Shown here: positions 1 through 16,271 of the stretch, piece after piece
How the letters are laid out: every line of letters begins with the position of its first letter
Numbering within the stretch: the first letter of the stretch is position 1
Source of the DNA: Acidimicrobiales bacterium
Lineage (GTDB): Bacteria > Actinomycetota > Acidimicrobiia > Acidimicrobiales > Aldehydirespiratoraceae
Length of the DNA: 48,645 bases
Assembly (NCBI GenBank): GCA_029263175.1
Contig: JAJCXZ010000073.1
Location: 1-48,645 of the forward strand
Direction of reading: 5' to 3'
Program-made: the position numbers and the translations under genes
Notes under the pieces: generated by a model
The model's database searches: none
What the model was told of the DNA's origin: nothing
The model's input: the letters and a program-made list of their open reading frames with translations, nothing else

Positions 1-687
1 ATCATCGCACGGAAGCACACCACTCACTTCTCCACCGAGGTGATGAACCCCTACTTCCACACCACGAAGAACGACCGGTTCCCGGCTGACCATCCGGTCA
101 ACACCTTCCTGGAGCGCTCCAGTGGTTTCGTTCCCGGCGACTCCTGGGATTCGAACTGCGCCACCGACATGATCTTTCGAGCACCGGAGATCACCAGCTT
201 TCTCGCCGACTGTCTGGAGATCCCCGAGCTCCACTGTTACGCCGACCCCTTGGCCGGGCTCACCGCCAACATCCTCGACCCCGGCCAACTCTTCACCTGG
301 CACTTCGACACGAACGACTTTGCCGTGACCGTGCTGGTGCAGGAGGCCGATGAGGGCGGACTGTTCGAATACTGCCCAGCGATCCGCAGCGCCCAGGATG
401 AGGGCTTCGACCGGATTCGACATGTCCTCGACGGCGGCCGTGAGGGAGTGCACACCCTCGATCTTCGCCCCGGCGACATGCAGATCTTCCGGGGCCGCCA
501 CAGCCTGCACCAGGTGTCGCGAGTCCGCGCGCACTCTCGGCCCCGTCATGCCGCGATCTTCGCCTACACCGAAAAGCCCGGCGTGATCGGCCGGGTCGAA
601 CGAACGCAGCAACTGTTCGGGCGGGTCTTGCAGGAGCATTTGGACGCGGAGCAGCAACGAGTCCGGTCCGACGCTCTGATTGACTAG
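1..687 (+). CDS. 2OG-Fe(II) dioxygenase-like protein, 5' end cut by window
   Basis: The reading frame is open to the first base of the window, so the true start lies outside; a GTG at 40 is an internal codon or a minor alternative start. The visible 228 residues hold a likely Fe(II) facial triad: WHFD (His101 and Asp103 from the first visible codon), then GRHSLHQVSRV with His170 as the probable second His and Arg174 as the probable 2-oxoglutarate anchor. This arrangement is typical of cupin-fold 2OG dioxygenases; the HxD pair argues for hydroxylation rather than halogenation. The substrate is unknown. It ends five bases before the PhyH-family gene at 693, so the two are probably co-transcribed. 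The fold call is fairly firm and any specific reaction would be a guess. Confidence 0.7.
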   Translation: MIARKHTTHFSTEVMNPYFHTTKNDRFPADHPVNTFLERSSGFVPGDSWDSNCATDMIFRAPEITSFLADCLEIPELHCYADPLAGLTANILDPGQLFTWHFDTNDFAVTVLVQEADEGGLFEYCPAIRSAQDEGFDRIRHVLDGGREGVHTLDLRPGDMQIFRGRHSLHQVSRVRAHSRPRHAAIFAYTEKPGVIGRVERTQQLFGRVLQEHLDAEQQRVRSDALID

Positions 688-692
688 GTGTC

Positions 693-1577
693 ATGCCGCT
701 TCCCGAACCCACGACCGACCAGAGCCGGCAACGTGCTGACCTCGACGAGTTCGGCTATTGCATCATCGCCGAAGCCCTCACTCAACAGGAGGCTGCTGCC
801 CTTTGCGAACGGATCTCGGCGCAGGCGTCGGCGGAGCGGGCGCAGGCACTCGACTTCCACTACCCCGCCGAGGCCGAAGGTGACGACGTCAATCAGTGGG
901 TCTACCAACTCATCAACAAGGGCGAAGAGTTCCAGCAACTCGCCTTGAACGCTGCCGCGCGGGAGTTGGCGACCTACCTCCTTGGCGCTGACCACCTGTT
1001 GTCGTCGCTCGATGCCCACATCACCTACCCCGGCAACAAGACGATGCCGTTGCACGCCGATCAATGGTGGATGCCGCAGCCGGCGATGCCCGGCACACCT
1101 CACGGGCGCCAAGGCGATCTCACCCGCACGAGCGGCCCGTACGGCGAACCCACATCGGCAGCAGTACCGATCTCGCCCCCGCTCGCCGCGAACATGATGT
1201 GGATGGCCAGCGACTTCACCGAGGCCAACGGCGCCACGCGCATGGTGCCGGGCAGCCATCTGAGCGGTTGTCTCCCCGATCCGTCACGCCAGGACTATCC
1301 GGCGGTGGCGATCGAAGCGCCGGCCGGCTCCGTGCTCGTCTGGGAAGGACGCACCTGGCATGCGGCCGGGCTCAACACGGCGGACCACCCCCGCTTCGGC
1401 ATCGTGACCTACTACTGCGCGCCGATCATGCGCGGGCTCGCCAACCTCACCTACGGCATGCGTTCCGAGGTCCGAGATGCCATGTCACCAGAGCTCTTGA
1501 AGCTGTGTGGGTTCACCCCGTGGAACAGCTACGGCATGACCGACGACCCCAACGCAGCAGTGATCAGACCAGGCTGA
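693..1577 (+). CDS. Phytanoyl-CoA dioxygenase (PhyH) family protein
   Basis: A 294-residue non-heme Fe(II)/2-oxoglutarate dioxygenase of the PhyH family. The HxD pair is His121/Asp123 in MPLHADQWW, the distal His is His223 in TWHAAG, and Arg234 in HPRFGIV is placed to bind 2-oxoglutarate. Family length is normal (about 250-320). The ATG at 693 follows the preceding stop by five bases, suggesting a two-gene oxygenase unit. Its 3' end overlaps the convergent M24-family gene by 14 bases. The EctD (ectoine hydroxylase) signature is not apparent, so the substrate stays open; hydroxylation of a small metabolite or acyl-CoA is the family expectation. Confidence 0.8.
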   Translation: MPLPEPTTDQSRQRADLDEFGYCIIAEALTQQEAAALCERISAQASAERAQALDFHYPAEAEGDDVNQWVYQLINKGEEFQQLALNAAARELATYLLGADHLLSSLDAHITYPGNKTMPLHADQWWMPQPAMPGTPHGRQGDLTRTSGPYGEPTSAAVPISPPLAANMMWMASDFTEANGATRMVPGSHLSGCLPDPSRQDYPAVAIEAPAGSVLVWEGRTWHAAGLNTADHPRFGIVTYYCAPIMRGLANLTYGMRSEVRDAMSPELLKLCGFTPWNSYGMTDDPNAAVIRPG

Positions 1578-2871
1578 TCGGGAAGTCGGTCAGTAGCTCG
1601 GGACCATTGTCGGTGACGAGATACTGGTCCTCGAGCTTGATGCCTTCTCCCCCGTCTCGCGAGCCGATGAAGCTCTCGGAGGTGAGGACCATCCCCGCCT
1701 TGAGTTCGCCGTCGTGGCCCCAGTCGTCCCAGCTCCACGGCATGTAGATGGACGGGTACTCATCGCATTGACCGACGCCGTGGTAGATCACCGAATAGTG
1801 CCGGTACACATCGCGGGGCATGACGTGTGAATCAAACGTGAGCTCACGGAACGTGCGCCCCGGGGTGAGGAGCTCGGCATTGGCGACGACCATGTCGTGA
1901 GCCATGTCAAAGAGCGTCTGTTGGTGTTGCGTCGGCTTCGCATCGCCGACGATCCAAGTGCGGCTGATGTCGATCATCATCCCGTAGGCCCCGACCAGGT
2001 CGGTGTCGTAGGCGAGAATGTCGCCGTTCTCGATCACCCGGGCGCTCGCCTCCTGCATCCACGGATTGGTGCGGGGGCCGGACGCCAGGATCTGAGTCTC
2101 GATCCACTCACCGGCTCGGGCGATGTTCCCGGCATGGAGCATCGCCCACACCTCCCGCTCGGTCATGCCCGGTTTCACCGCCTCGCGCATTTCGCCCATC
2201 GTGGTCTGACAGGCGTGGGCGGCACAGCGCATCGCATTGATCTCATCCGGGCTCTTGATCTCGCGAGCCAACTCCATGACCTCGCCACCCTCGCCGACGT
2301 CGATACCGGCGTTGGCGAACTCCTGATACCCGATTCGATGGCACTGATCGACGGCGATCCGCGCGCCGCGGCCACAGTGTTCCTCGATGACCTCGATCAT
2401 CTCTCCGGACCAACGAAGTGCCTGCTCTTCCCACCGGGTACCGCCGAGGAAGAAGGTCGACCCGATGGCCGGCCGCACCTCGTCGACCACCTCGCTGTGG
2501 CCCGAGAGGAACTCGGTGTTCTCGTAGTCCCAGATGATGACGTGGCCCGCCGCACTCACGAACGCATACCGGGCACCGTTGTGCATCACCCAGAGCTGCA
2601 TGTTGGTCGAGTCGGTGGCGTAGCGGACGTTGAGGGGATCGAAGAGCACGATGCCCCCGTAGTCCAACTCCTGGAGCTTCTGCCGAATCCGCTCGACTCG
2701 GTATCGGCGCATCGCCGTGAGGTCAGGTAGCTCTAGTCCGTCGGCGACCCACTCCGAAGTCAGCGCCTCGCCCGGACCGATCGCAAGATGGTGACCCGCG
2801 CCGGCCGCAAACGCAACCTCGGGCGTGCCGTCGAGAGCCTGCTGGACGGAGCGACGAACTCGACCGGGCAT
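1564..2871 (-). CDS. dddP: M24-fold DMSP lyase, DddP type
   Basis: Predicted to cleave dimethylsulfoniopropionate to acrylate and dimethyl sulfide. The protein has the creatinase/M24 metallopeptidase fold but DddP-type active-site residues. The metal ligands are Asp289, Asp291 and Asp301 (in AYDTDLVGAYGMMID), His364, Glu399 and Glu414. Asp370 in HGVGQCDEYP corresponds to the catalytic Asp377 of characterised DddP, and a Tyr sits five residues before His364. The spacings between these residues reproduce the DddP numbering as I remember it. SGPRTNPW and HGVGxCDE also look DddP-like. I chose the ATG at 2871 (435 aa), two bases after the upstream stop and with GGAG about six bases upstream; a start at 2913 would overlap the upstream gene. 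A creatinase- or Xaa-Pro-aminopeptidase-like role is the alternative. Confidence 0.75.
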   Translation of the reverse strand: MPGRVRRSVQQALDGTPEVAFAAGAGHHLAIGPGEALTSEWVADGLELPDLTAMRRYRVERIRQKLQELDYGGIVLFDPLNVRYATDSTNMQLWVMHNGARYAFVSAAGHVIIWDYENTEFLSGHSEVVDEVRPAIGSTFFLGGTRWEEQALRWSGEMIEVIEEHCGRGARIAVDQCHRIGYQEFANAGIDVGEGGEVMELAREIKSPDEINAMRCAAHACQTTMGEMREAVKPGMTEREVWAMLHAGNIARAGEWIETQILASGPRTNPWMQEASARVIENGDILAYDTDLVGAYGMMIDISRTWIVGDAKPTQHQQTLFDMAHDMVVANAELLTPGRTFRELTFDSHVMPRDVYRHYSVIYHGVGQCDEYPSIYMPWSWDDWGHDGELKAGMVLTSESFIGSRDGGEGIKLEDQYLVTDNGPELLTDFPISLV

Positions 2872-2873
2872 CC

Positions 2874-5411
2874 TCAGCTCCGCATCCGTTCTGCGTCTCT
2901 GTCCCAAATGCATCCCTCGACCCGAGTCGCAGTCCGCCGCTGCCCGATGATCTCGATCTCGAACAGGCCGTCCGACTCGGCGAGCGCGGCAGGCACGTAG
3001 CCCATGGCGACGCTGGTTTCACTGTGGTGGGCATAGCCGCCCGAGGTGATCCACCCGACGACCTCGTTGTCGTGCCAGATCGGCTCATCGCCGATCACGT
3101 CGACGCCGTCACGGCCCGCATCGCTCTCGACGGTGAAGGTGAGGAGCGCCAACGATGCGCCGGGGCCGTCATCGGCATACTTGGCGGCGAGTGCGTCACG
3201 GCCGATGAAGTCCTTGTCCATCTGGATGAAGCGACCGAGGTTGGCCTCGAATGGGTCGTAGATGGGCCGGTACTCACGGGCCCATGAACCAAAGCCCTTT
3301 TCGAGCCGCAAGGAGTTGAGGGCATGGAGACCGAACATCGTCAGTCCGAACTCCTCCCCCGCCTCTGTGAGCACCTCGTAGACATAGCGCTGGTAGCGGG
3401 CCGGCATCCAGAACTCGTAGCCGAGGTCGCCGGTGAACGTCACACGGCCGCACCAGACCGGGGCGAGGCCGATGCCGATCTCCTTGAACGACATGAAGCG
3501 CATGCCGTTCTGGGTGACGTCAGCGTCAGTGACCTTCTCGAGGAGAGCGCGGGCATTCGGGCCTGCAATTGACAGCCCGGCCATCTCCCATCCGAGCGTG
3601 TCGTACTCGACCGAGCCGTCGGAAGGCAGATGCTGGTCGAACCAGCGCTCGTAGTAACGCTCGGCAATGCCCGAACCGAAGAGAATGAATTCCTCGGCGT
3701 CTCGGGTATTGGCGGTGGCACCGCCGGTGATTGTGGTGTCGGGTCCCTCGGCCACCCCGGCGGCGGCGCCGAGAGTGGCGACCGTGAGGTCGCCGATCAG
3801 GTTGCCGGCGGGATTCGTCATCGGAGTCAGCGACATCCGACCCGGGTTCGGGATACGACCGGCAAGCAGGCGGTCGAGGTACGCCCGGGCACCCGGTCCC
3901 GAGAAGCGGAATTTCGAAAAGCCGGTGGTCTCCCACATGCCCACACTCGACCGGACCGCAAGAACCTCCTCGCGAACCTGGTCCCAGGCGTTGGACCGAC
4001 CAAACGTCACGTCCTCGAATGGTTCCTCACCCTCCTTCTGGAACCACAGCGCCGACTCGAGGCCGAAGCCGACACCGAAAACGGCGTTCTTCGCGGCCAG
4101 GCGGTCGTAGATGGGCGAGGTCTGGACGCCTCGGCCGGCGGCGAGGTGCTCGTTGGGAAACGAAATCCGGAAGCGCCGCGAGTAGTTCTCACGAACTTTC
4201 TCGCTGGTGTAGGCCATCGTGGCGTAGTCGCCGTAGCGGCTGATGTCCATCCCCCAGATGTCGAACCCGGGGTCGCCGTCCGTGATCCAGTTGGCGAGCG
4301 AGAGACCCACACCGCCGCCCTGCGACAAGCCGGCCATGACCGCACACGCCGACCAGTAGCCGGGCAGGCCGCGAACCGGCCCGAGCAACGGGTTGCCATC
4401 CGCCGCAAACGTGAACGGCCCATTGATGACCTGCTTGATGCCGGCCTCGGAAAAGACCGGGAAGTGGTTGAAACCCGTCTCGAGCGATTCCGCGATGCGG
4501 TCGAGATCGGGGGTGAGCAGTCGAGCCCCGAAATCCCAGGGAGTCTGCGACGTGGACCACGGCTTGCCTCGTCGTTCGTAGGTGCCCATGAGAAGGCCAT
4601 TGCCTTCCTGACGCATGTAGATCTCGCCACCGAAGTCCACGGCGTGGATGATCTCCTTGCCGGTGTCCTTGTTGTGCTGGACAACCTCGGGAATCTCCTC
4701 GGTGAGTAGGTACATGTGCTCCATGGCGAGCAGTGGGGTTTCCAGCCCGACCATGCGACCGACCTCGCGGGCCCAGAGACCACCGGCGTTGACGACGTGC
4801 TCGCAGTGGACGATCGCCTTGTCCTCGTTGGACTGGGTGTCGTAGACGGTGAGATCCCAGCCGCCGTCGGCGGCTCGGTTGATGTCTCGAACCCAGGAGT
4901 GGCGATGCGTCTCCGCGCCACGGTTACGGGCGCACTCGAGGTAGGCGTGAGTGATCTGGCTCGGGTCGAGATGTCCTTCATGAGCGTCCCACATGGCGCC
5001 AACGAAGTACTTCGGATCCAGGATCGGCAGAAGCTCCTTGGCCTCCTCGGCCGAGATGAGCTCCGTCTCCATCCCGAGGTACTGGCCCCGGGCGTGGCTC
5101 ATCTTCAGCCAATCCATGCGCTCGTGGGTGTCGGCCAGCATCACGCCGCCGGTGATGTGCATGGATGCGTCCATGCCCGATTCCTTCTCGATCTCCTCGT
5201 ACAGCTTGATCGTGTACTGCTGGAGCTTGGCGACGTTGGGGTCACCGTTGAGGGTGTGCATGCCGCCGGCGGAGTGCCACGTCGAGCCGGCCGTGTATTC
5301 GGCCCGCTCCAGCAGGACGACGTCGGTCCAACCCGCCTTTGTCAGGTGGTAGAGGACCGATGCGCCGACGACACCGCCGCCGATCACAACGACTTGAGTG
5401 TTGGTCTTCAT
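2874..5411 (-). CDS. Dimethylglycine/sarcosine dehydrogenase-type FAD-GcvT protein
   Basis: An 845-residue two-domain enzyme. The N-terminal DAO-type FAD domain (about 1-390) begins with GGGVVGAS (11-18). GSTWHSAGG follows, with His46 at the position that carries covalent FAD in dimethylglycine and sarcosine dehydrogenases. The C-terminal half (about 430-840) is a GcvT/aminomethyltransferase-type folate-binding domain that would pass the methyl carbon to tetrahydrofolate as 5,10-methylene-THF. Length matches the mammalian and bacterial families. It lies 10 bases after the Rieske oxygenase gene and two bases before the dddP start. This order fits stepwise demethylation: the Rieske enzyme removes the first methyl of a trimethylammonium compound and this flavoprotein a later one. 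The exact substrate (dimethylglycine, sarcosine or another N-methyl amino acid) cannot be read from sequence. Confidence 0.85.
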   Translation of the reverse strand: MKTNTQVVVIGGGVVGASVLYHLTKAGWTDVVLLERAEYTAGSTWHSAGGMHTLNGDPNVAKLQQYTIKLYEEIEKESGMDASMHITGGVMLADTHERMDWLKMSHARGQYLGMETELISAEEAKELLPILDPKYFVGAMWDAHEGHLDPSQITHAYLECARNRGAETHRHSWVRDINRAADGGWDLTVYDTQSNEDKAIVHCEHVVNAGGLWAREVGRMVGLETPLLAMEHMYLLTEEIPEVVQHNKDTGKEIIHAVDFGGEIYMRQEGNGLLMGTYERRGKPWSTSQTPWDFGARLLTPDLDRIAESLETGFNHFPVFSEAGIKQVINGPFTFAADGNPLLGPVRGLPGYWSACAVMAGLSQGGGVGLSLANWITDGDPGFDIWGMDISRYGDYATMAYTSEKVRENYSRRFRISFPNEHLAAGRGVQTSPIYDRLAAKNAVFGVGFGLESALWFQKEGEEPFEDVTFGRSNAWDQVREEVLAVRSSVGMWETTGFSKFRFSGPGARAYLDRLLAGRIPNPGRMSLTPMTNPAGNLIGDLTVATLGAAAGVAEGPDTTITGGATANTRDAEEFILFGSGIAERYYERWFDQHLPSDGSVEYDTLGWEMAGLSIAGPNARALLEKVTDADVTQNGMRFMSFKEIGIGLAPVWCGRVTFTGDLGYEFWMPARYQRYVYEVLTEAGEEFGLTMFGLHALNSLRLEKGFGSWAREYRPIYDPFEANLGRFIQMDKDFIGRDALAAKYADDGPGASLALLTFTVESDAGRDGVDVIGDEPIWHDNEVVGWITSGGYAHHSETSVAMGYVPAALAESDGLFEIEIIGQRRTATRVEGCIWDRDAERMRS

Positions 5412-5421
5412 GAGCGAGCCT

Positions 5422-6666
5422 TCATGACTTGAGTTCGATGGTTGGTGGGGCAGGGTTGGGTCCGGTGCCGAGCCGTGACTCCTCGGAACGATCGTCGCCG
5501 GCAGGGATCATGAGCCCGGTTGCCAGCGAGTCGGCGGTCATGCAATCGGCGAGCATGTTGTGGAAACGGTGCAACGGCTCCTCGAAACGGGGGGCGAGCG
5601 GCCCGGCATTGATCCGACCGCGGGTCAGGCCGCGCTGGCCCCGTTCGCAAATGTCGATGTCCTCGGCGTTGACGTCGGACCAGAAGTCGCGGGTCGCCTT
5701 CATGTCGTCATCAGAGATCGCCGGCGTGGAAGGAGGGAGAAGGAACGTGCACGTCTCACGGGTGAGGCCGGGAGCGATCGGGTCGAGTCGCATCACGAAG
5801 ACATGGTTCGGCAGAACCGTGAAGATCACGTTCGGGTACACGGCGACGTGCCGCCCGCTCTCCGCATCAGAGGCGTCGAGACCATCAGCGGCGGGCAGGA
5901 CCAACCAATCGTCGCGATCGTCACCGGACACAGGGGTGGTCGTCTGGCCGCAGTACATGCCCGGACCCTGGTAGCGGTAGTGGTCCTTGACCCGGCTCAC
6001 CTTCGCCAGCTCCGGATGGACCCACGTGAGGTGGTAGTACTCCTGGAAGTTCTCCGAGATCAGCTTCCAGTTGGCGCCGACCTCGAGTGTGGCTTCCTCC
6101 TGGATTCGCCAATCTGCGAAGCCGTAGCCGGCCATCCGTTCGGGGAGGTCCCCCAGCCACTCGATCAACGGCGGGGTCTCGGGGTCGAGGCATGCGAACA
6201 GAAGCGGGCCCCAGGTGTCGACTCGTATCTGATGCAGCGAATAGTCGGCCTTGTCGAAGTCGTCGCGCGGCACTTCGTCGAAGAAGGGTGCGGCAACGAG
6301 CGTGCCATCGAGCCCGTAACCCCAACGGTGATACGGGCAGCGGATCGTGCCGGCGATCTCGCAGTCGCGCTCGGCCAACTCGGTGCCGCGGTGGCGACAC
6401 GTGTTGAGAAAGCCCCACAACTCGCCATCGGTGCCCCGCGTGATCAGGACTGATTTCTGGCCGACGGATCGAACGAGCATGCGGCCCGGCTCGGCCACCT
6501 CAGGAGCGGTGCCGACGACGACCCACGCCCGCTCGAACACGAGTTCCTGTTCCAGCGCAAAAAAGCGTTCATCGACGTATGCCGATGGGTTGAGCCCCGT
6601 CGCTTCTCGTAGCGGTGCGCGGGTTCCGATCCACGCCGCGTCGTCTGTCCAATCAGTCATGTCCAT
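5422..6666 (-). CDS. Rieske non-heme iron oxygenase, betaine-demethylase type
   Basis: The 414-residue oxygenase subunit of a Rieske system. The [2Fe-2S] ligands are Cys90, His92, Cys110 and His113 in CRHRG and CPYHRWGYG. The mononuclear iron site is ENFQEYYHLTWVHPEL, with two His, plus an acidic residue near 336-338 in NAEDIDICERGQRGL. That ENF-YH-HPEL arrangement resembles glycine betaine monooxygenase (GbcA) and related quaternary-amine enzymes. I used the ATG at 6666; a GTG one codon earlier overlaps the mttB-like stop by one base. No ferredoxin-reductase partner is adjacent, so electrons must come from elsewhere. Together with the downstream dimethylglycine dehydrogenase, glycine betaine is the most plausible substrate; stachydrine or carnitine-like compounds are alternatives. 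Confidence 0.8.
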   Translation of the reverse strand: MDMTDWTDDAAWIGTRAPLREATGLNPSAYVDERFFALEQELVFERAWVVVGTAPEVAEPGRMLVRSVGQKSVLITRGTDGELWGFLNTCRHRGTELAERDCEIAGTIRCPYHRWGYGLDGTLVAAPFFDEVPRDDFDKADYSLHQIRVDTWGPLLFACLDPETPPLIEWLGDLPERMAGYGFADWRIQEEATLEVGANWKLISENFQEYYHLTWVHPELAKVSRVKDHYRYQGPGMYCGQTTTPVSGDDRDDWLVLPAADGLDASDAESGRHVAVYPNVIFTVLPNHVFVMRLDPIAPGLTRETCTFLLPPSTPAISDDDMKATRDFWSDVNAEDIDICERGQRGLTRGRINAGPLAPRFEEPLHRFHNMLADCMTADSLATGLMIPAGDDRSEESRLGTGPNPAPPTIELKS

Positions 6667-6668
6667 CA

Positions 6669-8204
6669 CTAGAAGTCCGTTGCAATCCCGCCTTCGGCGA
6701 TCCGGCGATCAACGAAGTCGTCGAGCTCGGCGCGCACGGCGTCCTCCATCGGTGGTTGTTCGTAGGTCGCGAGCAGATCGTTCATCACCCGCTCGGCATG
6801 GTCGTAGGACGTTGGTCGCCCGGCTTCGTCCCACGTCTCGAAGTTTCGCCAGTCGGAAATCATCGGACGGTAGAACGCGTCGCGATAACGATCCTGGGTG
6901 TGCTGCGTGCCGAAGTGGTGACCGCCAGGGCCGACCTCGGCGATTGCGTCCAGGGCGAGGGTGGCATCATCCACCACGAGCGGCTGAAGGAACGTGGCCA
7001 CCATCTGGAGCAGGTCGCCATCGATCACCATCTTCTCCGGGGAGGCGTGGAGACCCCCCTCCATCCAACCGGCACCGTGATACACCACGTTGGCGCCACC
7101 CATGATCGCTCCCCACAGTGCGAACGTGCTCTCGTAGCCGGCCTGCACGTCGAGCGTGTTGGCGGCACACACATTGGACGACCGGTAGGGGAAGCCGTAG
7201 CGGCGAGCCAGTTGGCCACCCAACATCGCCGACTGGATGTACTCAGGGGTACCGAACGCGGGAGCCCCCGACTGCATGTCGACGTTGGACGTGAACCCGC
7301 CATAGATCGCAGGAGCACCCTGTCGCACGAGCTGGGTGAATGCAATTCCGGCGAGCGCCTCGGCGTTCTGCTGCACCACCGCGCCGGCCACCGTGACCGG
7401 AGCCATCGCGCCGGCCAGCGTGAACGGGGTGACGATGATGACTTGGTTCCGAGCCGAGTACTGGAGAATTCCCTCCAGCATCGGCGTGTCGAGCCGCAGC
7501 GGTGACGACACATTGATCACCGAGTGGACAATCGGGTGGGTGTCGAGCTGTTCGTCGGTGAGACCGCGAACGATTCGCACCATCTCGAGGCAATCGATGT
7601 TGCGTTGCGCACCAAGTGAGTACACGCTCACTGCTTTCGGGCTGAGGGTGAGAATGTCTCGCGTGGCTTCGAGGTGACGGATGGATGAGTGGATGTCCAC
7701 CGGCTCGACCGGGTAACCACCGTGACTCTGGACGATGTTGAGTTGCTGGCAGAGCTTCAGCAGGGTGCGGAAGTCCTCCTGGTTGCCCATGCGGCGGCCG
7801 CCCTGTCGATCGACGTAGTTCGGAGCGCTCGCAACCGAGGTGAACACCACATTGTCTCCCCCGATCTTCAGGTCGTACTGCGGGTCGGGCGCGTGCATGG
7901 TGAACTCCGACGGCACGGTGGAGATGAGATCCAGCACCAGTTCGGGGTCGAGCCGAACTCGTTCGCCGTCGATCTTGGCTCCCGCCTCCGTCCAGAGCTC
8001 GAGCGCCTTGGGATGCAGGAAGTCCATACCGACGGTGCTGAGCACCTCCAGCGACGCGAGGTGGATCGATTCGAGCTCGTCGTCGGAAACGATCCGAGTT
8101 GGCTCGATCGGTCGACGGTAGAGCTGCCAAGGCCGCTGCGGTGGCCCAACTGGACCGGTCGGACGTTCACGACGGCCACCTGACCGGCGCCGGGGTTCGT
8201 TCAT
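6669..8204 (-). CDS. MttB superfamily (trimethylamine methyltransferase-like) protein, non-pyrrolysine
   Basis: A 511-residue member of the trimethylamine/glycine betaine methyltransferase TIM-barrel family. Support comes from the N-terminal segment ending LEVLSTVGMDF, the central VSSPLRLDTPMLEG and NAEALAGIAF stretches and the late VGPGGHHFGTQHT motif. No amber codon interrupts the frame; TAG only ends it at normal length, so it is a non-pyrrolysine homologue like the MtgB class. Such enzymes transfer a methyl group from a quaternary amine to a corrinoid protein, but no corrinoid protein or activase is encoded nearby. Its start overlaps the IclR stop (ATGA). A second divergent paralogue lies at 29915-31459. 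Confidence 0.85.
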   Translation of the reverse strand: MNEPRRRSGGRRERPTGPVGPPQRPWQLYRRPIEPTRIVSDDELESIHLASLEVLSTVGMDFLHPKALELWTEAGAKIDGERVRLDPELVLDLISTVPSEFTMHAPDPQYDLKIGGDNVVFTSVASAPNYVDRQGGRRMGNQEDFRTLLKLCQQLNIVQSHGGYPVEPVDIHSSIRHLEATRDILTLSPKAVSVYSLGAQRNIDCLEMVRIVRGLTDEQLDTHPIVHSVINVSSPLRLDTPMLEGILQYSARNQVIIVTPFTLAGAMAPVTVAGAVVQQNAEALAGIAFTQLVRQGAPAIYGGFTSNVDMQSGAPAFGTPEYIQSAMLGGQLARRYGFPYRSSNVCAANTLDVQAGYESTFALWGAIMGGANVVYHGAGWMEGGLHASPEKMVIDGDLLQMVATFLQPLVVDDATLALDAIAEVGPGGHHFGTQHTQDRYRDAFYRPMISDWRNFETWDEAGRPTSYDHAERVMNDLLATYEQPPMEDAVRAELDDFVDRRIAEGGIATDF

Positions 8205-8968
8205 GATGCTGCCGTTTCGAGACGTCGGTGCCCGAGCTCGGCCGAGATCTCGTCGGCGCGGGCGAGCACCAGGGCGGCCACCCGATCGGCTTCACCGCGG
8301 GCGGGAAATCTGTAGCTGGGTCCGTAGGTGTAGAGCGCACCAACCGCTCGGCCGGCGGCATCGATGATGGCAGCCGAGGCCGAGGACAGGCCTTCGACAT
8401 ACTCGCCGTGGGTCCACATCACCCTGCACAGGCGGGCTTGCCGGACGCGGGATCGCAGACGATCCGGGTCCGTGACCGTGTTCTCGTTGCAGGCGAGGAG
8501 TTCGCCGGAGAGATACTGCTCGACCTCGTCGTCGGTCCATGTCGCCATCACGACGAGTCCCGCTCCACCGGCGTGGAGGGGAACCCGCGTGCCGGTCCAG
8601 TTCTCGGCCTGGATCGGCTTTGGCGCATCGACCTGATCGACGGTGACGGTGTCGTATCCGGAGAGCATTGCGAGACACATTGCTTCATCCAGATCCGCCG
8701 CCAAGTCGACGAGGTGAGGATGGACGATCGTCTCGAGCGTGCGGCTGGTGTCAGTGGATCCCGCCATGGCCTGAATGGCGGCGCCGATCGTGTAGATGCC
8801 GTCAGCGTCACGGGCGACCGCATCCTCGGATTCGAGGGTGGCCAGCAGCCGCGCTGCGGTGCTCGTGGCCAATCCAGCACGCGCCGAAAGGTCGACGAGG
8901 CCCCCCGGCCGGCGGCCGATCTCTCGCAACAGGGCGAGGGCACGTTCAACGCTTTGTACCGAACTCAC
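8201..8968 (-). CDS. IclR-family transcriptional regulator
   Basis: A 255-residue regulator with an N-terminal winged helix-turn-helix (about 1-60, SVQSVERALALL followed by LSARAGLATSTAARLLATLE) and a C-terminal GAF-like effector domain (about 75-250), the normal IclR layout. It starts with GTG at 8968 with no obvious Shine-Dalgarno sequence. It is separated from narI by 60 bases that hold nested inverted repeats. It overlaps the following mttB-like gene by ATGA, so it leads the osmolyte-catabolism unit and probably controls it and itself. The effector is likely a pathway substrate or product (inference). Confidence 0.9.
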   Translation of the reverse strand: MSSVQSVERALALLREIGRRPGGLVDLSARAGLATSTAARLLATLESEDAVARDADGIYTIGAAIQAMAGSTDTSRTLETIVHPHLVDLAADLDEAMCLAMLSGYDTVTVDQVDAPKPIQAENWTGTRVPLHAGGAGLVVMATWTDDEVEQYLSGELLACNENTVTDPDRLRSRVRQARLCRVMWTHGEYVEGLSSASAAIIDAAGRAVGALYTYGPSYRFPARGEADRVAALVLARADEISAELGHRRLETAAS

Positions 8969-9028: not shown

Positions 9029-9748
9029 CTAGTGTTGACGCTCCAACGGCTTCTCGGAGGCCGGGTGGTAGACGGCCGGGCTCTCGCGCATCCGAACCAC
9101 CCGCTGCCAGGGCCTCGTGAGATAGCCGAGCGGCAGGGTGATGATGTGCACCAGGCGGGTGAACGGCATGAGCGCCAGAAACACCCAGAATGTGAACGCG
9201 TGCAGTTGCAGCGCAAAGGGCAGCGGGTCGACGTATTCGGGCTTCGGGTCGAAGGTCAGGATCGAGCGTACGTAGGGTACGAACACCGACGTTCCCCAGA
9301 ACGAGCCCCACCGATAGCCGACGGCAATCCACACCCCGCTGAAGATCTGCAACGCCACGACACCGAGGACCACAAAGTCCATCGTCGAACTGACGGCTCG
9401 GATGCGGGCGTTGGTGAACCGACGGTACGCCAAGACCCCGATTCCGAACGCGGCCCACAGTCCAAGAGCCAGGCCGGTGGCCTCGAGCAGGTAGAGCCTC
9501 AGGGGTGCACCGTTCCAGATCTCGAAGCCTCGCGGAATGATGAGGGCCACAAAGTGCCCGACCAGGATCGTCGAGAGGCCCCAGTGAAACGGCACCGAGC
9601 CCCAGTACAAACGCCTGCTTTCGAGCAGCTGCGACGAGAGCGACGAGATGGAGAACGGGCGGAAACGCCAGCGGATCACGGTGACCACCACCAGCAGCGC
9701 GCCGGCGACGTAGGGGAAGACACCGAAGAGAAGGTCGTTGGTGCTCAT
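9029..9748 (-). CDS. narI: Respiratory nitrate reductase gamma subunit (cytochrome b)
   Basis: A 239-residue diheme cytochrome b that anchors NarGH in the membrane and passes quinol electrons to it. Five hydrophobic helices are visible. His55 and His65 (PFHWGLSTILVGH) and His183 and His201 (LQLHAFTFW, TRLVH) fall almost exactly where E. coli NarI has its heme ligands (56, 66, 187, 205). The ATG overlaps the narJ stop (ATGA), and its Shine-Dalgarno GGAG lies inside a tandem 18-base repeat at the end of narJ. It is the last gene of the nar run. Confidence 0.95.
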   Translation of the reverse strand: MSTNDLLFGVFPYVAGALLVVVTVIRWRFRPFSISSLSSQLLESRRLYWGSVPFHWGLSTILVGHFVALIIPRGFEIWNGAPLRLYLLEATGLALGLWAAFGIGVLAYRRFTNARIRAVSSTMDFVVLGVVALQIFSGVWIAVGYRWGSFWGTSVFVPYVRSILTFDPKPEYVDPLPFALQLHAFTFWVFLALMPFTRLVHIITLPLGYLTRPWQRVVRMRESPAVYHPASEKPLERQH

Positions 9749-10302
9749 TGCTTGTCTCCGATCGTCTGCTTGTCTCCGATCGCCTGTCTGACTCCGATCA
9801 CAACAGGCTTCAGGTCCTGCACGACCGCAAGCGTGGCGGCGAGCAGGTGGCGGTACGGGTTTCGCTTCTCGGCAGTGCGCAGCGTCGATTGCATCTCGGT
9901 GACCGATTTCTCGAGCACGTCGGTCAGGTCCGACATCGGGGCCGGCGTGGTCGCGAGATAGCGAAGGATGGGTTCGATGTGGTCGGGAAGCTCACCGCCG
10001 AGATCAACACCACACGCTTCCATGTCACGTTTGAGCTCGGCCATGAACTCGCCCCGTCGGTAGTTCTCACCCCAGGTGACGTGGCCCACGTAGGGCACGA
10101 ACATCGGCGAGAGGTCGAGGGTGCGGGTGTGAAGCTCCTCCCACTCCCCCAGCTCGAGCGATTCGACCGCGGCGATGAAGTCCTCCATCGCCTTGCGCAC
10201 CGACGAGCGGGGCATGGCGGCGACAGAGTCGCTCAGCACACCGAGGGATGGAGGATCGGGGTAGCGGAACCCCAGGGCGACGACTTCGGCGGGATGCATC
10301 AT
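9745..10302 (-). CDS. narJ: Nitrate reductase assembly chaperone (NarJ/TorD family)
   Basis: A 185-residue cytoplasmic chaperone needed for molybdenum-cofactor insertion into NarG. It has the all-helical NarJ pattern, including FRYPDPP near the start and MFVPYVGHVTWGENYRRG at about 67-85. It is shorter than many NarJ proteins (about 220-240). The last residues repeat a six-residue unit (VIGVRQ, IGDKQT, IGDKQ) because the DNA carries 18-base tandem copies. The start overlaps the narH stop by ATGA and the stop overlaps the narI start. Confidence 0.9.
   Translation of the reverse strand: MMHPAEVVALGFRYPDPPSLGVLSDSVAAMPRSSVRKAMEDFIAAVESLELGEWEELHTRTLDLSPMFVPYVGHVTWGENYRRGEFMAELKRDMEACGVDLGGELPDHIEPILRYLATTPAPMSDLTDVLEKSVTEMQSTLRTAEKRNPYRHLLAATLAVVQDLKPVVIGVRQAIGDKQTIGDKQ
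9749..9802. repeat. 18-base tandem repeat at narJ 3' end
   Basis: Two near-identical 18-base units (9749-9766 and 9767-9784, one mismatch) and a third degenerate unit (9785-9802). On the coding strand each good copy contains GGAGACAAGCA, and the copy next to narI provides the narI Shine-Dalgarno. The duplication lengthens NarJ in six-residue steps without breaking the ATGA junction. Confidence 0.85.
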
Positions 10303-11810
10303 GCGCCCCGGTGCGGTGCTTCGAGAGCCCCGAATCCGGCCATGCCTCGGTGCTCCATGACATCTTCCATGGCCTCGATCGACATCTCCCGGTGATACGG
10401 CGGGAAGACGAACCGATCGTCGATGGTGGGGATCGTGGTGAGCTTGTAGATCTCCTCGGCCAGTTCTTCGGTGAGCCCGGCCGACGCCAGCATTGCCGTT
10501 GTGGTCTTGTCGATCGACTGATCAACGCTCTGCAGTCGCTTGTAGCTGCGCACCGCAAGCATGATGCGCAGGGCCTTGCGGATCGGCTCCTCGTCACCAA
10601 CCGAGAACAGGTTGGCGAGGTACTTCACCGGCAATCGAGCCTTGTCCAGTTGATCGAGCAACTCGAAGTCGACGCGCTCGGCGTCGAGGTCGAGGTTGAC
10701 CATGTTGCGCTCGATCGTGCTCATCACCGGCGACAGCGGTGGGACGTAGAACATCATCGCTGCGGTGCGGTATTCGGCGTGGAGCGGCAACGCCATGCCC
10801 CACTCCTTGACGAACTTGTAGACCGGCGAACGCTGGGCTGCATCGAGCCAGCCATCATCGATTCCCGATGCTTTCGCCGCGGTGATCACGGCCGGGTCAT
10901 AGGGGTCGAGAATGATGTCGAGCTGACCATCGAGGAGCTCATCGTCGGGTAGCGACACCGCCTCTTCGATGCGATCCGCGTCGTAGAGCAACACACCCAT
11001 GTAGCGAATCCGGCCGACGCACGAGTGCGCACACGCCGGCGCCTGGCCGGTTTCCATCCGGGGGAAGCACAGGATGCACTTCTCGCTCTTCCCCGTGTCC
11101 CAGTTGTAGAACACCTTCTTGTAGGGGCAGGCGGCGACACACATGCGCCAGCCTTTGCACTTGTCCTCGTTGACGAGAACAACGCCGTCCTCTCCCCTCT
11201 TGTAGATCGCACCGCTCGGACATGCGGCGACACAGGCCGGGTTCAGACAGTGGTTGCAGATCCGCGGCAGGTAGTTGAACACCACCCGCTCGATCTCCTC
11301 CATCTGCGCTCGGACCGTGTCGTCCACACCCTCCAGGGATATGTCGTTGCGGGCGAAGACATCGGAACCTCCGAGGTCGTCGTCCCAGTTGGGCCCGCCG
11401 TTGACTTCCATCTCCTTGCCGGTGATCTTGGAGATGGGTACGGCGGTCGGCTGATGCTCCTGCTGAGGAGTGTCGAACAGATCGCCGTACTTGAACGTGA
11501 ACGGGTCGTAGTAGTCCTCGAGCTCCGGCAGCGAAGGGTTGTAGAAGAGCTTGCCCAGCCCGCCCGCCTTGGAGTGAAGGGTCAGCTTGAGTCGACCCTT
11601 CTCGTCGCGCTTCCAGCCGCCCTTGTAGTGGTCCTGGTCCTCCCACCCCGTGGGGTAGCCGGTACCCGGACGGGTCTCGACGTTGTTCCACCACATGTAT
11701 TCCGCGCCAGGGCGGTCGGTCCACAAGTTCTTGCAAGCTACCGAACAGGTGTGGCAGCAGATGCACTTGTCGAGGTGGAAGAGCATGCTCATCTGGGCTC
11801 GTACTCGCAT
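10299..11810 (-). CDS. narH: Respiratory nitrate reductase beta subunit (Fe-S)
   Basis: A 503-residue electron-transfer subunit. The N terminus reads MRVRAQMSMLFHLDKC, like other NarH proteins. The first cluster Cys are 16, 19, 22 and 26 (CICCHTCSVAC). Later come CNHCLNPACVAACP, the CKGWRMCVAACP segment with the Trp-bearing [3Fe-4S] site, and CILCFPRMETGQAPACAHSC. I chose the ATG at 11810, with GGAG seven bases upstream; an ATG at 11816 sits only one base from that site. A longer frame to 11927 would lie inside narG and does not resemble NarH. Confidence 0.95.
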   Translation of the reverse strand: MRVRAQMSMLFHLDKCICCHTCSVACKNLWTDRPGAEYMWWNNVETRPGTGYPTGWEDQDHYKGGWKRDEKGRLKLTLHSKAGGLGKLFYNPSLPELEDYYDPFTFKYGDLFDTPQQEHQPTAVPISKITGKEMEVNGGPNWDDDLGGSDVFARNDISLEGVDDTVRAQMEEIERVVFNYLPRICNHCLNPACVAACPSGAIYKRGEDGVVLVNEDKCKGWRMCVAACPYKKVFYNWDTGKSEKCILCFPRMETGQAPACAHSCVGRIRYMGVLLYDADRIEEAVSLPDDELLDGQLDIILDPYDPAVITAAKASGIDDGWLDAAQRSPVYKFVKEWGMALPLHAEYRTAAMMFYVPPLSPVMSTIERNMVNLDLDAERVDFELLDQLDKARLPVKYLANLFSVGDEEPIRKALRIMLAVRSYKRLQSVDQSIDKTTTAMLASAGLTEELAEEIYKLTTIPTIDDRFVFPPYHREMSIEAMEDVMEHRGMAGFGALEAPHRGA

Positions 11811-11820
11811 GATCATGCTC

Positions 11821-14800
11821 CTAGTAGTCGGGCCGCTCGATGCGGCGCACATAGACGAAGGTGTCGCGATTGACGCCGGTGGGGCCCCAATAGTTGAAGG
11901 CGTAGGTGAACTGGCCGTAGCCGCCACTCATCAGCACCGGCTTGAGCCGGGTTCGGGTGAGCGAGTTGTTCATTCCCGCTCGCTTGTCCCGCCGGGGCGA
12001 GATCGGGATTCCGACGGTGCGTTCGGTGGCGTGGTACACGAACACGGTGCCTCGGGGGATCCGTGAAGACGTCGTACACCGCTGCACGAAGACGCCGTTG
12101 TCGTTGTAGACCTCTACCCAATCGTTGTCGGCGATACCGAGATCGACAGCGTCCTTGGCGTTGAGCCAGACCGGATACCCGCCTCTCGACAGCGTCATCA
12201 TCCGCTCGTTGTCGCCGTAGGTGGAGTGAATCGACCACTTGCCATGAGGCGTGATGTAGTTCATCAGCTTGCCGTCCTGGCCTTCGGCCAGGGACTGCTC
12301 CGTCTCTGACAACATCGCGTGATCGGGTCTCGGCTTGTACCCCGGTAGGTGCTCACCCCACTCGATGTAGCGATCGTGGTCGAGATAGAAGTGCTGACGG
12401 CCGGTGAGTGTGCGCCAGGGCACTCGCTCCTCGATGTTGAGCGTGTAGGGGGAATAGGCCCGCCCCTTGCCGATCAGACCGCTCCAGGTCGGGGTCGTCA
12501 GCACCCGGCGGGGCTGGGCAATCAGATCGGAGAAGTTGATCCTCGTGTCGCGCTGCCCGGCAGCGAGGTGGGTCAGGTCACGACCGACCTTGGCCCCTTC
12601 GGCCACGAAGGCACGATGAGCGATCTCGCCGTTGGATGCCGGATCGAGGGCAAGGATTGCCTCACAGACCTCGCGGCTCCGAACAAGCGACGGCCGCAGT
12701 GGCGTGTCGGCTCCGCCGGTGCGCTTGTCGGGTTGCTTGCGAGCGAGCTCGTCGTAGAAGTCGTCGACCTGCATGCGTAGGCCGTGCGCCGCGACGCCGT
12801 TGTCGCGAACACCCAGACCCAGGGAAGTCATGCGTTCGTACAGATCGGCGAAACTTCGTTTGACGACCTTGAACCGCGGCATGGTCTTGCCGGGAATGGC
12901 CTCGACCTCGCCTGTGCGCCAATCGGCGGGCTTCGTTTGTGCCATCTCGTCGGGCGTGTCGTGGGCCAGCGGCTGCATCACGACGTCTTCCACCTCGGCG
13001 GGGAGATGCCCGCCCGACATTTCCGCCACCTTCCTGGCCAGCGAGGAGAAGATCTCCCAGTCCGACTTCGACTCCCATGCCGGAGGGACCGCCGCCTGCA
13101 TCGGGTTGATGAAGGAGTGCATGTCGGTGCTGTTGAGATCGTCCTTCTCGTACCACGTGGCCGCGGGGAGGACGAGGTCGGAGTACAGCGCCGTGGTGTC
13201 CATCCGGAAGTTCAGATCGACAACCAGGTCCATCTTTCCGATGGGTGCATCGGGCCGCACATTGACCTCTGCGACTCCGTGGTCGTCGGGCTCGACAGCG
13301 ATGGCGCTGGACTCGGTGCCCAGATAGTGCTTCATGAAGAACTCGTGGCCCTTGGCCGACGTGCCGATGGCATTGCCGCGCCAGATGAACCAGGTGCGAG
13401 GCCACGACTCCGGGGCATCGGGGTCGTCGATGGCGAACTCGATCTCGCCGGTCTTCAGGCGCTCGACGATGTAGTCGCTGACCTCCTCATCGGTCTCGGC
13501 GCCGGCCCGCCGCGCCTTGCGCATGAGTTCGATCGGGTTGTCCTTGAACTGCGGGAAGAACGGCAGCCAGCCCTGGCGAACGGCACGAGCCTGATGGTCG
13601 ATCGTGTGATCGTGCTTCTCGGGGTGAGCTTCGGGCAGCGAGTCGTAGTCGCGGTAGCCCCGCTCGTAGCGCCACTGGTCGGAGTGCACGTAGTGGAACG
13701 ACGGAGTGTTCTGCTGGCGGGGCGCCATACCCCAATCGAGACCGAACGCGATCGACGCCCAGGATGCGGCGTTCACCAGTTTCTCCTGGCCGACATAGTG
13801 GCCGAGCCCGCCACCGTTGACACCGACCGAACCGGTCAGCATCAGGGCGCAGATACCCGATCGGTACAGCAGGTTGTTGTGGTACCAGTGGTTGGCGCCG
13901 GCGCCGATGATGATCAGGTTCTTGCCCTTGGTGAGCTCGCCGTTGCGGCCCCACTCTCGGGCGAACTTCACCACGGTGTCGCGATGGATACCCGTGTACT
14001 GCTCCTGCCATGCCGGGGTGTACGGCACGTCTTCGTCGTCGTAGCCGGCGGCGTCGTAGCCCTTCAGCCCACGGTCGACCCCGAAACGGGCGTTGAGCAG
14101 GTCGAAGACCGTGGTGACCGTGACGGGACCGTTCGCGGTCTGCACGGTGCGCACCGGGACCGAACGAGTGACGGTGCCATCGGTGCCGAAGAACTCGAGT
14201 TCGACCGGCACGACATCATCGTGTTGGTCGATGAACGAGAGCCGGGGGCTGATGTCCTCACCGGTCAAGCTGTCCTTGAGCTCGAGGTTCCAGTTGCCCT
14301 TGTTCTCGACGGCCCAGCGATCACCGACGGTGCCGTTGGGCAGCATCGGCGCATCGGTGACGTCGTCCCACACGAGCATCTTCCACTCGGGGTTCTCGAC
14401 GCCGGTGTAGGGCTCGACCTCACCGGCTCGGAGGTACTTGCCGGCCTGGCCGTCGTCGACCTGAACCAGGAACGGCAGGTCGGTGTTCTCCTTGGCGTAC
14501 TGCTGGAAGTAGTCGACCTCGCGGTCGGCGTAGAACTCCTTGAGGAGCACATGATTCACGGCCAGCCAGAATGCGGTGTCCTGGCCGGGGTTGGCCGGGA
14601 TCCACCAGTCGGCGTACTTCGCCACCTGGGAGAAGTCGGGGCTGAAGACAGCGAGCTTCGCACCGGCGTGGCGCACTTCGGAGATGAAGTGCGTGTCCGG
14701 GGTGCGGGTCATGTTGAGGTTGGCACCCATCACCGCAACAAAGCGGGAGTTGTACCAGTCGGCAGATTCATGGACGTCGGTCTGCTCGCCCCAGATCTCC

Positions 14801-15444
14801 GGTGATGCCGGGGGAAGGTCGCAGTACCAGTCGTAGAAGCTCATGACCACGCCGCCGACCAGCGACATGAATCGGCTGCCGGCCGCATAGCTGACCTGTG
14901 ACATGGCGGGGATCGGCGAGAAGCCGGCAACCCGGTCGGGGCCGTGGTCCTTCACCGTGTGGACGGTGGATGCGGCCGCGAGTTCGAGTGCTTCGTCCCA
15001 GCCGATGCGACGGAAACCACCCTTGCCGCGGGCCTTCTGGTACTTCTTGCGCCATTCCGGGTTGTCCTGAATGGCTTTCCAGGCCTCGACCGGGTCGCCC
15101 AGGGACTCCCGCTTGGCCTGGCGATACATGTCGATCAACACACCACGCACGTACGGGTACTTCACCCGGATCGGTGAGTAGAGGTACCACGAGTAGGAGA
15201 TGCCACGCTGACAACCGCGTGGTTCGTACGGCGGAAGTCCTTCCTCGAGCTGGGGGTAGTCCGTGGCCTGGAGCTCCCAGGTGACGATGCCATCCTTGAC
15301 GAACACCTCCCACGAGCAGCTTCCGGTGCAGTTGACGCCGTGCGTCGTTCGTACCCGCTTGTCGTGCTGGAAGCGGTTCCGGTAGAACTCCTCCCACTTC
15401 CGCTCAGCCGGGTTGACTGATTCTTCGATCCACTGCTCGGTCAT
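11821..15444 (-). CDS. narG: Respiratory nitrate reductase alpha subunit (Mo-bisMGD)
   Basis: The 1207-residue catalytic subunit that reduces nitrate to nitrite. The FS0 cluster ligands His35, Cys39, Cys43 and Cys78 (HGVNCTGSC, then RGCQRG) show the NarG spacing. Asp209 in [12 protein letters not shown] corresponds to the molybdenum-ligand Asp of E. coli NarG. Long stretches such as [15 protein letters not shown] and [14 protein letters not shown] follow the family throughout. There is no twin-arginine signal, so the active site should face the cytoplasm and nitrate must be imported, in keeping with the two NarK genes. The start overlaps the diheme cytochrome stop by ATGA. Confidence 0.97.
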
Positions 15445-16271
15445 CGCTTGCTCCTCAAGACGTCGACGTAGGTCTGGCGCATGCCGCGCCAGGCGATGGC
15501 CATGCCACCGATGAGGACTATGAGTCCGGCCACGCCGGCGTAGATCAACCCGTCCCCGGGGTCAGTTGGCTTCGACTGCGTTGGTGCGTCGCCCAAGAAG
15601 GCGACGATGTCGGCGATCTCGTCGTCGGTCATCGGCCTGTCGTTGAAGATCGGCCGCATTGTCGCCGAGGCCGGGCTGGACAGCCAGGCCGCGAGTCCGA
15701 CCTCACCTCCGAGCGCGTCATGACTGTTGGTGATGTCGGGGCCGAGGCTCCAACCACCGAGGTTGCCGACGTCTCCTGCGGTGTGGCAGCCCACGCAGGC
15801 TCCACCACCGTTGGCGAGCCGGTCGGAGCCGATGAAGAGATCACGGCCTTCGCCGATGTCGCCGGGTTCGACGACCTCGGGCTGTTCGGTCGGAACAGCC
15901 GTCGGGTCGACATCGGCCAGGGTGGCGACATAGGCCACGACCGAGGCGATCTCGTCGTCGGAGAGATTCGAGAACGACGCCATGGTGCCGTCGTAGGTGA
16001 CGTCGAGCACCTCGATCGCTCCGCTCAAGCCGTTGCGGACGACCTCCTCGACATAGGTCGAATCTGCCGCGCTGGGGTTCCCGGCCAGCGGCGGGAAGGT
16101 CCCGACGAGACCGAGGCCGCCAGGTTGATGACACGACGCACAGTTGTCGGCGTACACCTGGGCACCAGCGGCGGCATCTTGCGCGAGAGGGGCAGAGGCA
16201 TGCGCCGGCAGGCTGGCTGCGGTCAGCAACAGTGCCAGGAATCCGACTCCGAGGAAGAGGCGAGTGCTCAT
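15441..16271 (-). CDS. Membrane-anchored diheme cytochrome c (NarC-like position)
   Basis: A 276-residue protein with an N-terminal signal sequence (about 1-26), two c-heme motifs (CASCH at 44-48 and CVGCH at 159-163), and one C-terminal helix (about 241-261) ending in basic residues. It should be a periplasm-facing electron carrier held in the membrane. The ATG at 16271 overlaps the upstream narK stop (ATGA). Its place directly before narG recalls the diheme NarC of the Thermus nar operon, which works with NarGHI there. Sequence homology to NarC is not established here; only position, heme count and anchoring are. Confidence 0.85.

Follow-up and report, generated by a model that had tools for sequence, protein, structure and literature searches.

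The closest described relative of the enzyme discussed here is DddP, which cleaves DMSP to DMS and acrylate. In RdDddP, the metal ligands are D295, D297, D307, H371, E406, and E421 (PMC4108388). The passages on catalysis in PMC4108388 and PMC5395565 propose Asp377 as the base and assign roles to D377, Y366, and a tryptophan, the last of which binds the sulfur and is given without a residue number in PMC5395565. The affinity of DddP for DMSP is low (Km 14–17 mM in the table of PMC5395565), and a fungal enzyme, FgDddP, which shares 32% identity with RdDddP, yields DMS in E. coli (PMC4108388). As of 2018, sequenced Actinobacteria were without a known functional ddd gene (PMC6309047), and dddP homologues have been reported, by homology, in Acidimicrobiia metagenome-assembled genomes (PMC7494906, PMC13280387). 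A preliminary description of the locus presented here had regarded a DddP-type DMSP lyase in an actinobacterial-looking genome as unexpected; the actinobacterial origin holds, and the surprise is weakened by these published homologues.

A DddP-family gene at the end of a betaine-type operon

We analysed a stretch of 48,645 nucleotides (the window), in which the gene under study is the last of five closely packed genes. Its predicted protein has as nearest named relative, at 89% identity, a protein of "Actinomycetota bacterium isolate H12BWF_bin.29", followed by proteins of Nitriliruptorales, Ca. Microthrix, Ilumatobacter, and Acidimicrobiales. Judged by these relatives, the host is an actinobacterium and most likely belongs to the class Acidimicrobiia. 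The dddP bins named in the relevant sentence of PMC7039863 do not include H12bwf_bin.29, but that sentence concerns sediment bins.

Table 1. Predicted genes at the locus, with positions in the window
Feature	Position	Strand	Length (aa)	Domains	Remarks
HalD-type 2-oxoglutarate oxygenase	1..687	plus		PF23169	HxD motif; truncated at contig end
PhyH-type Fe(II)/2-oxoglutarate dioxygenase	693..1577	plus		PF05721	convergent, 14-base overlap with M24 gene
M24/DddP-like gene	1564..2871	minus	435	PF00557 (Peptidase_M24), PF01321	open frame; last gene of operon
FAD-dependent oxidoreductase-GcvT fusion (DMGDH/GcvT; dimethylglycine/sarcosine dehydrogenase type)	2874..5411	minus	845	PF01266, PF16350, PF01571, PF08669	
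Rieske oxygenase alpha subunit, GbcA-like	5422..6669	minus	415	PF00355, PF00848	
MttB-superfamily methyltransferase	6669..8204	minus	511	PF06253 (650.6 bits)	
IclR-type regulator	8201..8968	minus		PF01614, PF09339	operon's first gene

The genes run in the order IclR-MttB-Rieske-DMGDH/GcvT-M24, with junctions that overlap or leave gaps of at most 10 bases (2 bases between the end of the DMGDH/GcvT gene and the start of the M24 gene). Read from their MttB, Rieske, and DMGDH/GcvT domains, they form a betaine-demethylation-type operon that the M24 gene closes, in agreement with the preliminary description. The methyltransferase gene is without pyrrolysine, being an open frame with no internal stop, and the PDB matches of its product are 4yyc, then 2qne and 9yce, the last named a glycine betaine methyltransferase. 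Judged by family, the demethylation system of the operon may act on glycine betaine. The Rieske protein scores 170.5 bits against the GbcA model NF058607, under the cut-off of 670, and none of the five operon genes encodes a reductase for it. The DMGDH/GcvT protein exceeded the cut-off of no NCBIfam family among the 25 of its 34 matches listed, and the HalD-like protein had no PDB relative at E 0.1.

The corrinoid protein that such a methyltransferase would use is encoded outside the operon. Seven PF06253 MttB-family genes are present in the genome, and family searches placed a PF02310 corrinoid protein on another contig (C76), some 4 kb away from one of the seven, in a cluster that, on inspection of the sequence, also includes a pterin-binding methyltransferase and an activase. 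As this cluster resembles MtgBCD, it could support the MttB of the operon in trans.

The best NCBIfam model for the M24 protein is NF043017 (DddP), at 456.2 bits and E 1e-136, with the next model at 52.6 bits; the score lies under the equivalog cut-off of 600 bits for NF043017. A sequence search of the PDB returned RlDddP (4RZY, E 1e-111) and RdDddP (4B28, E 3e-102), with prolidases at E 7e-13 and weaker. An AlphaFold2 model of the 435-residue protein (mean pLDDT 89.5; 53 input sequences from the window and the loci) superposed on four DddP entries with Z 46.8–47.0 and an rmsd of 1.5–1.6 Å over 408–409 residues. Among other M24 folds, the best prolidase gave Z 34.4, the ectoine hydrolase DoeA 32.0, and creatinase 31.6, all Z scores coming from a re-examination of Foldseek's best 1000 chains. 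The predicted product belongs to the DddP family and is modeled with its two-domain M24 pita-bread fold. The preliminary description had named grouping with creatinases or aminopeptidases as an outcome that would speak against it; a creatinase or aminopeptidase identity is rejected here by sequence and fold, the nearest relatives being neither creatinases nor prolidases and the trees described below containing no creatinase.

Catalytic residues mark the superfamily

We aligned the family in 111 usable rows, among them the window protein, RlDddP, and RdDddP, with some records present twice (L045/L008, L117/L016) and one sequence, L057, left out of the alignment, the trees, and the substitution counts. 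D289, D291, D301, H364, E399, and E414 of the window protein align with the six metal ligands of RdDddP, and D370, Y359, and W94 with D377, Y366, and W95. The motifs SGPRTNPW and HGVGQCDE are present, so that the ligands, the catalytic Asp, and both motifs claimed at the outset (the second as HGVGxCDE) were all recovered by alignment. We take the sulfur-binding tryptophan to be W95, a number mapped from the 4RZY chain; the W95 numbering of the DddP tryptophan in Wang 2015 reportedly agrees.

These nine residues do not vary in 109 of the 111 rows, nor the six metal ligands in any of the 111. Both exceptions are paralogues from the window's own genome, one on C83 (Trp to Phe, Asp377 to Gly) and one on C49 (Trp to Phe). 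Included in the 109 are proteins from Rhizobium plasmids that carry the annotation Xaa-Pro peptidase or proline dipeptidase and whose genes adjoin genes for a Rieske protein, a reductase, a proline racemase, and a glycine betaine/proline ABC transporter. Since the nine residues recur in rows of such mixed context, they mark the DddP superfamily and are not diagnostic of DMSP lyase. We rejected them as proof of lyase activity because they are common to the rhizobial proline-betaine-like cluster proteins too. Of the original designation, "DddP-type DMSP lyase," the family assignment stands by sequence and fold, and the use of the residues as proof of a lyase does not.

The window protein branches outside the studied DddP clade

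For a quick maximum-likelihood tree, we kept 72 of the 111 rows, removing those more than 85% identical to a kept row. RlDddP and RdDddP fell in a 22-row clade (SH-aLRT 100), the verified clade, together with rows from Loktanella, Paracoccus, Sneathiella, Oceanimonas/Oceanisphaera, Psychrobacter, and Pseudomonas. The window protein lay in a separate, chiefly actinobacterial group of 33 rows (SH-aLRT 92), within a 17-row clade (99), and a third group of 10 rows comprised Mesorhizobium, Roseibium, and Kiloniella (86). With the longest branches (L002, L003, and L129) omitted, a second tree of 69 rows was used for AU tests, the groups in which were named after the tree was seen: a constraint placing the window row inside the verified clade cost 182 log units (p 8e-111), and rejection was weaker for a constraint uniting all 17 rows of the window's clade with the verified one (53 log units, p 0.015). 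Five verified-clade proteins scored 618–693 bits against NF043017 and five from other clades 353–508 bits, so the cut-off of this model agrees with the border in the tree; the cut-off was exceeded in none of 61 order-level genomes. By these sequence comparisons, the window protein is outside the clade of both DddPs of known structure.

The edge of that clade is itself uncertain because RlDddP and RdDddP are the only studied enzymes in the trees, the fungal DddPs and the DddP1 and DddP2 of Oceanimonas doudoroffii not being placed. Genomes of the Oceanimonas group carry verified-clade copies and some of them also copies of another type (that of locus L128), so an experimentally verified enzyme could fall beyond the 22 rows of the clade. 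This comparison was made without L002, L003, and seven others; L174, L175, L177, and L179 were unused, and L172 was below the length limit. The activity of FgDddP at its low identity likewise means that activity on DMSP may reach beyond the verified clade.

Positions beside the catalytic residues differ as well. R266, C305, and L375 (RlDddP numbering) are invariant in 24 verified-clade rows, and C404 is found in 22 of the 24. In the 18 rows of the window's subclade, R266 is replaced by Q and L375 by Q throughout, C305 by M in 16, and C404 by T in 15 and by S in the other three. A neighbouring Acidimicrobiia subclade, C2, has C305, L375, and C404 changed in all six rows, but not R266. L375 stands between the ligand H371 and the base D377, C305 two residues before D307, and C404 two before E406. 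The substitutions suggest an altered pocket, nearness to the active site meaning here closeness in sequence to the ligands.

Linkage to betaine genes recurs outside the verified clade

To see how far the gene arrangement is kept, we compared neighbourhoods of relatives. Within the window's family, DMGDH was found at all nine loci with a window-type M24 gene (2.8 kb off at L032, the set being L025–L033) and MttB at seven, the remaining two ending at a contig edge. A ProVWX-like (betaine/proline-type ABC) transporter, recognised by inspection of the sequence, adjoins the operon in several relatives. At two loci from another genus of the family (L040 and L041), MttB, Rieske, and DMGDH are 69–74% identical, and the M24 protein in the same place is only 47–48% identical and belongs to a different subclade by tree (row L022). 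Among 18 order-level loci searched, a PhyH gene neighbours M24 in 6 and a HalD-type gene is near it in 12.

We then took in 88 named loci (80 genome contigs and 8 plasmid loci, L057 being assigned to the window's subclade by hand). MttB and DMGDH both lay within about 9 kb at 41 of them: 40 of 66 outside the verified clade versus 1 of 22 inside. The Mesorhizobium/Roseibium clade contributed 26 of 31 loci, many of them near copies; the four subgroups of the window's group had the pair at 3/13, 6/7, 0/4, and 3/6 loci, and the plasmid outgroup at 2/5. When one row was counted per NCBI genus wherever a genus was named, with flanks of at least 4.5 kb on both sides, the pair was present at 17 of 33 outside versus 0 of 12 inside. 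Of the 13 named loci in the window's subclade, 7 lacked every betaine gene searched for in their vicinity, and two of these 7 (L046 and L055) are cut by contig ends. The linkage of M24 to betaine genes recurs in Acidimicrobiia, Alphaproteobacteria, and Gammaproteobacteria. At an Arenicellales locus of the verified clade (L110), acuI lies directly upstream of the dddP-family gene.

In open-licence PMC literature, we found no description of a dddP gene inside a betaine operon, in the passages seen of PMC12478193, PMC10989825, and PMC5395565, or likewise of PMC5015088, PMC10348482, and PMC7876524. As far as these searches reach, the betaine-operon linkage in Actinomycetota and Pseudomonadota, and the family border that it draws, are new.

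Co-occurrence with DMGDH and AcuI

To ask whether the association extends to whole genomes, we scored 61 of them: the window's own, 36 of its family, and 24 of its order. M24 was called present at 350 bits or more, a limit chosen after the scores were seen, and DMGDH at E 1e-200, partial matches counted. Both genes were found in 22 genomes, DMGDH only in 8, M24 only in 1, and neither in 30 (Fisher p 5e-9); counted by genus (n = 34), the numbers were 8, 3, 1, and 22 (p 7e-5), p-values that take no account of the species tree. In two of the eight DMGDH-only genomes (G019 and G033), the M24 family is represented by lower-scoring members or fragments alone. Within two genera (g5 and g6), and partly within a third (g8), M24 and DMGDH are present or absent together; the five g6 genomes that have the pair all carry it on different contigs, so the association is more than adjacency. 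The dependence is nearly one-way, with DMGDH in 22 of 23 M24 genomes and M24 in 22 of 30 DMGDH genomes, which fits an enzyme supplying something extra to the betaine pathway.

AcuI is an acrylate reductase, the usual partner for handling acrylate. Across 37 order-level genomes, it was not associated with M24 (both 2, AcuI only 6, M24 only 12, neither 17; p 0.68), and none was over the cut-off in the window's genome, where the best match reached 92 bits of 297. Among named genomes that encode a relative, AcuI exceeded the cut-off in 26 of 31 (10 of 14 for Actinomycetota), including all seven genomes of named window-subclade relatives at 57–66% identity; the genome of an eighth, L045, which is of the window's genus, has none. 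We dropped AcuI as a deciding marker, as it gives opposite answers in the window's order and in the named relatives. A DmdA-like protein in the window's genome scores 358 bits, under the cut-off of 410, and indicates that DMSP may matter to the host.

Proposed function

We favor a nitrogen-betaine-linked role for the M24 enzyme, outside the studied DMSP-lyase clade, and put the probability of this reading at a little under one half (about 0.48). The enzyme is a DddP-family member with a predicted two-domain, dinuclear-metal M24 fold, encoded last in an operon for stripping methyl groups off a betaine-type osmolyte. The substrate carboxylate would sit on the metal pair, W94 and Y359 would hold the methylated onium head, and D370 would take the proton next to the carboxylate, upon which the onium group would leave. 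By homology with DddP, the reaction would be a beta-elimination in which a small zwitterionic acid loses its methylated onium group, the leaving group being dimethyl sulfide or an amine. DMSP would be a less likely natural substrate than some other methylated onium compound, one that either feeds into the operon's own betaine or enters the cell along with it. In the same pathway, a first methyl group would be taken off by MttB and loaded onto the corrinoid protein encoded outside the operon, leaving DMGDH/GcvT to oxidise the N-methyl groups still attached.

A true DMSP lyase is a plausible competitor, if somewhat doubtful: MttB, Rieske, and DMGDH would demethylate betaine, and M24 would cleave DMSP to DMS and acrylate, one operon serving both osmolytes. 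Every known catalytic residue and the DddP fold are retained, AcuI is encoded by all seven of the genomes noted above, and the DmdA-like gene points the same way, as does the activity of the fungal DddP at 32% identity (PMC4108388). Transporter genes of the betaine/proline type adjoin the operon in relatives, and a betaine uptake system also takes DMSP, according to the title of a 1998 paper. The bin prefix of the nearest named relative denotes a Yellow Sea bottom-water sample, and a guild defined at genome level in PMC10348482 combines lyases of any of seven kinds with trimethylamine methyltransferase. Against a lyase stand the score below the DddP cut-off, the position outside the clade of structurally known DddPs, the substitutions beside the catalytic residues, the window genome's want of an AcuI over the cut-off, and the missing association of AcuI with the gene in its order.

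An enzyme like creatinase or ectoine hydrolase, which would cleave a C-N bond in an amide or amidine substrate and thereby provide the DMGDH-type enzyme with a methylated amino acid, would share the fold of creatinase (Z 31.6) and DoeA (Z 32.0), and M24 occurring nearly always with DMGDH, and not the reverse, is what a pathway-feeding enzyme would give. We consider it improbable, as the protein is far closer to DddP by sequence and structure and retains W94, Y359, and D370 as in DddP; RlDddP, moreover, was without measurable activity on Val-Pro (PMC5395565). An ordinary Xaa-Pro peptidase in the operon by chance, as the M24 domain and the public annotation of relatives ("Xaa-Pro peptidase family protein" or "putative proline dipeptidase") might suggest, is very unlikely, given peptidase matches at E 7e-13 and weaker, Z 34 versus 47, and operon linkage that recurs across three classes.

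Extended to the whole superfamily, the nitrogen-betaine reading leads to a tentative proposal: the DddP superfamily may at its root consist of onium-osmolyte enzymes of N-betaine catabolism, with the DMSP lyases as one clade, the operon-borne actinobacterial and rhizobial members acting on an N-betaine, and part of the metagenomic "dddP" of sea and soil not being lyase. If members outside the verified clade do act on N-betaines, estimates of DMS potential such as those in PMC7494906 and PMC13280387 would be too high, and the low affinity of DddP for DMSP may reflect its origin. If the window protein cleaves DMSP instead, Actinomycetota would gain a betaine-plus-DMSP operon.

Comparison with known systems

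The M24 protein is most like DddP (RlDddP, 4RZY; RdDddP, 4B28), with which it shares the M24 fold (Z 47.0, rmsd 1.5 over 408 residues), the six ligands, the equivalents of D377, Y366, and W95, and the SGPRTNPW and HGVGxCDE motifs. It differs in being only 44% (RlDddP) and 41% (RdDddP) identical in the family alignment, in its separate clade and betaine operon, and in having Q260, M299, Q368, and T397 for R266, C305, L375, and C404. The proteins of the third group in the tree (Mesorhizobium, Roseibium, and Kiloniella) are 48–53% identical to it, have the same nine residues, and also lie near MttB and DMGDH. Unlike the window protein, they are mostly proteobacterial, often have a BHMT gene nearby in place of Rieske, and keep DddP-type residues at C305 and L375 (11/11), R266 (9/11), and C404 (10/11). 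Creatinase and DoeA share the M24 fold and a place in N-methyl or osmolyte catabolism, but at 14–17% identity in structural alignment and Z 31–32. As a pathway, the operon parallels MtgBCD of Ruegeria pomeroyi, with a PF06253 first step, a corrinoid protein encoded apart, and further demethylation (PMC12478193). Both an MtgBC-like PF06253 methyltransferase and a corrinoid protein were found in the window's genome. The operon departs from MtgBCD in its closing M24 gene: the terms DddP, M24, and peptidase each occur 0 times in the main text of PMC12478193.

A HalD-type oxygenase near the M24 gene

Eighteen loci from genomes of the window's order were searched, and 12 of them have a gene for a HalD-type 2-oxoglutarate oxygenase close to the M24 gene. 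Among 88 loci from named genome contigs and plasmids the pairing was seen in three, two of which are repeat records of loci among the 18. At three loci (L037, L042 and L046) the oxygenase gene accompanies the M24 gene even though neither MttB nor DMGDH was seen there. The oxygenase carries an HxD motif, which we take to mark a hydroxylase-like enzyme and not a halogenase, and it may be part of the pathway.

Features of the window, its genome (G000) and two other loci
Feature	Location	Strand	Basis or loci
HalD-type 2-oxoglutarate oxygenase, HxD motif	window 1-687	+	compared: L025-L042, L045, L046, L117
Nitrate reductase cluster, two MFS transporters	window 9029-15444, 16268-19502	-	NarI by Pfam; NarG, NarH, NarJ by sequence inspection
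DAO-type FAD oxidoreductase	window 26103-27413	-	domain families
Second MttB-superfamily gene	window 29930-31432	-	domain families
Xanthine-dehydrogenase-type molybdoenzyme	window 36822-40464	-	Pfam matches for a large subunit and a small 2Fe-2S subunit
DddP-like paralogue	G000 C83:49238-50398		L002
DddP-like paralogue	G000 C49:202436-203575		L003
DmdA-like protein	G000 C77:55914-56999		L149, L159
Gene set resembling dddD-T-B-C, Pseudomonas sp. MPC6 plasmid	L154 12360-26313		
acuI and dddP, Arenicellales	L110 4361-6681		

Operon surroundings and related genes

The nitrate reductase cluster lies immediately upstream of the betaine-type operon, and at a congener locus (L029) NarH and NarI likewise adjoin it. 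In the genome of a congener (G003:C331, L028) the DMGDH gene contains a single in-frame TGA, reflecting either an assembly error or decay. The window's second MttB gene, close to the FAD oxidoreductase gene, is one of seven in the whole genome. By alignment, both additional DddP-like paralogues lack the DddP tryptophan, and one also lacks the catalytic Asp; the DmdA-like protein scores 358 bits, slightly below the DMSP demethylase cut-off of 410.

Putative DMSP-related gene sets at two other loci

On the Pseudomonas plasmid, genes for a CoA transferase, a BCCT transporter, an alcohol dehydrogenase and a semialdehyde dehydrogenase form a set that resembles dddD-T-B-C. The gene for a DddP-like protein, labelled "Xaa-Pro peptidase", is located ~5-13 kb away from this set. 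At the Arenicellales locus, a dddP of the verified clade has acuI directly upstream, in an apparent acuI-dddP operon.
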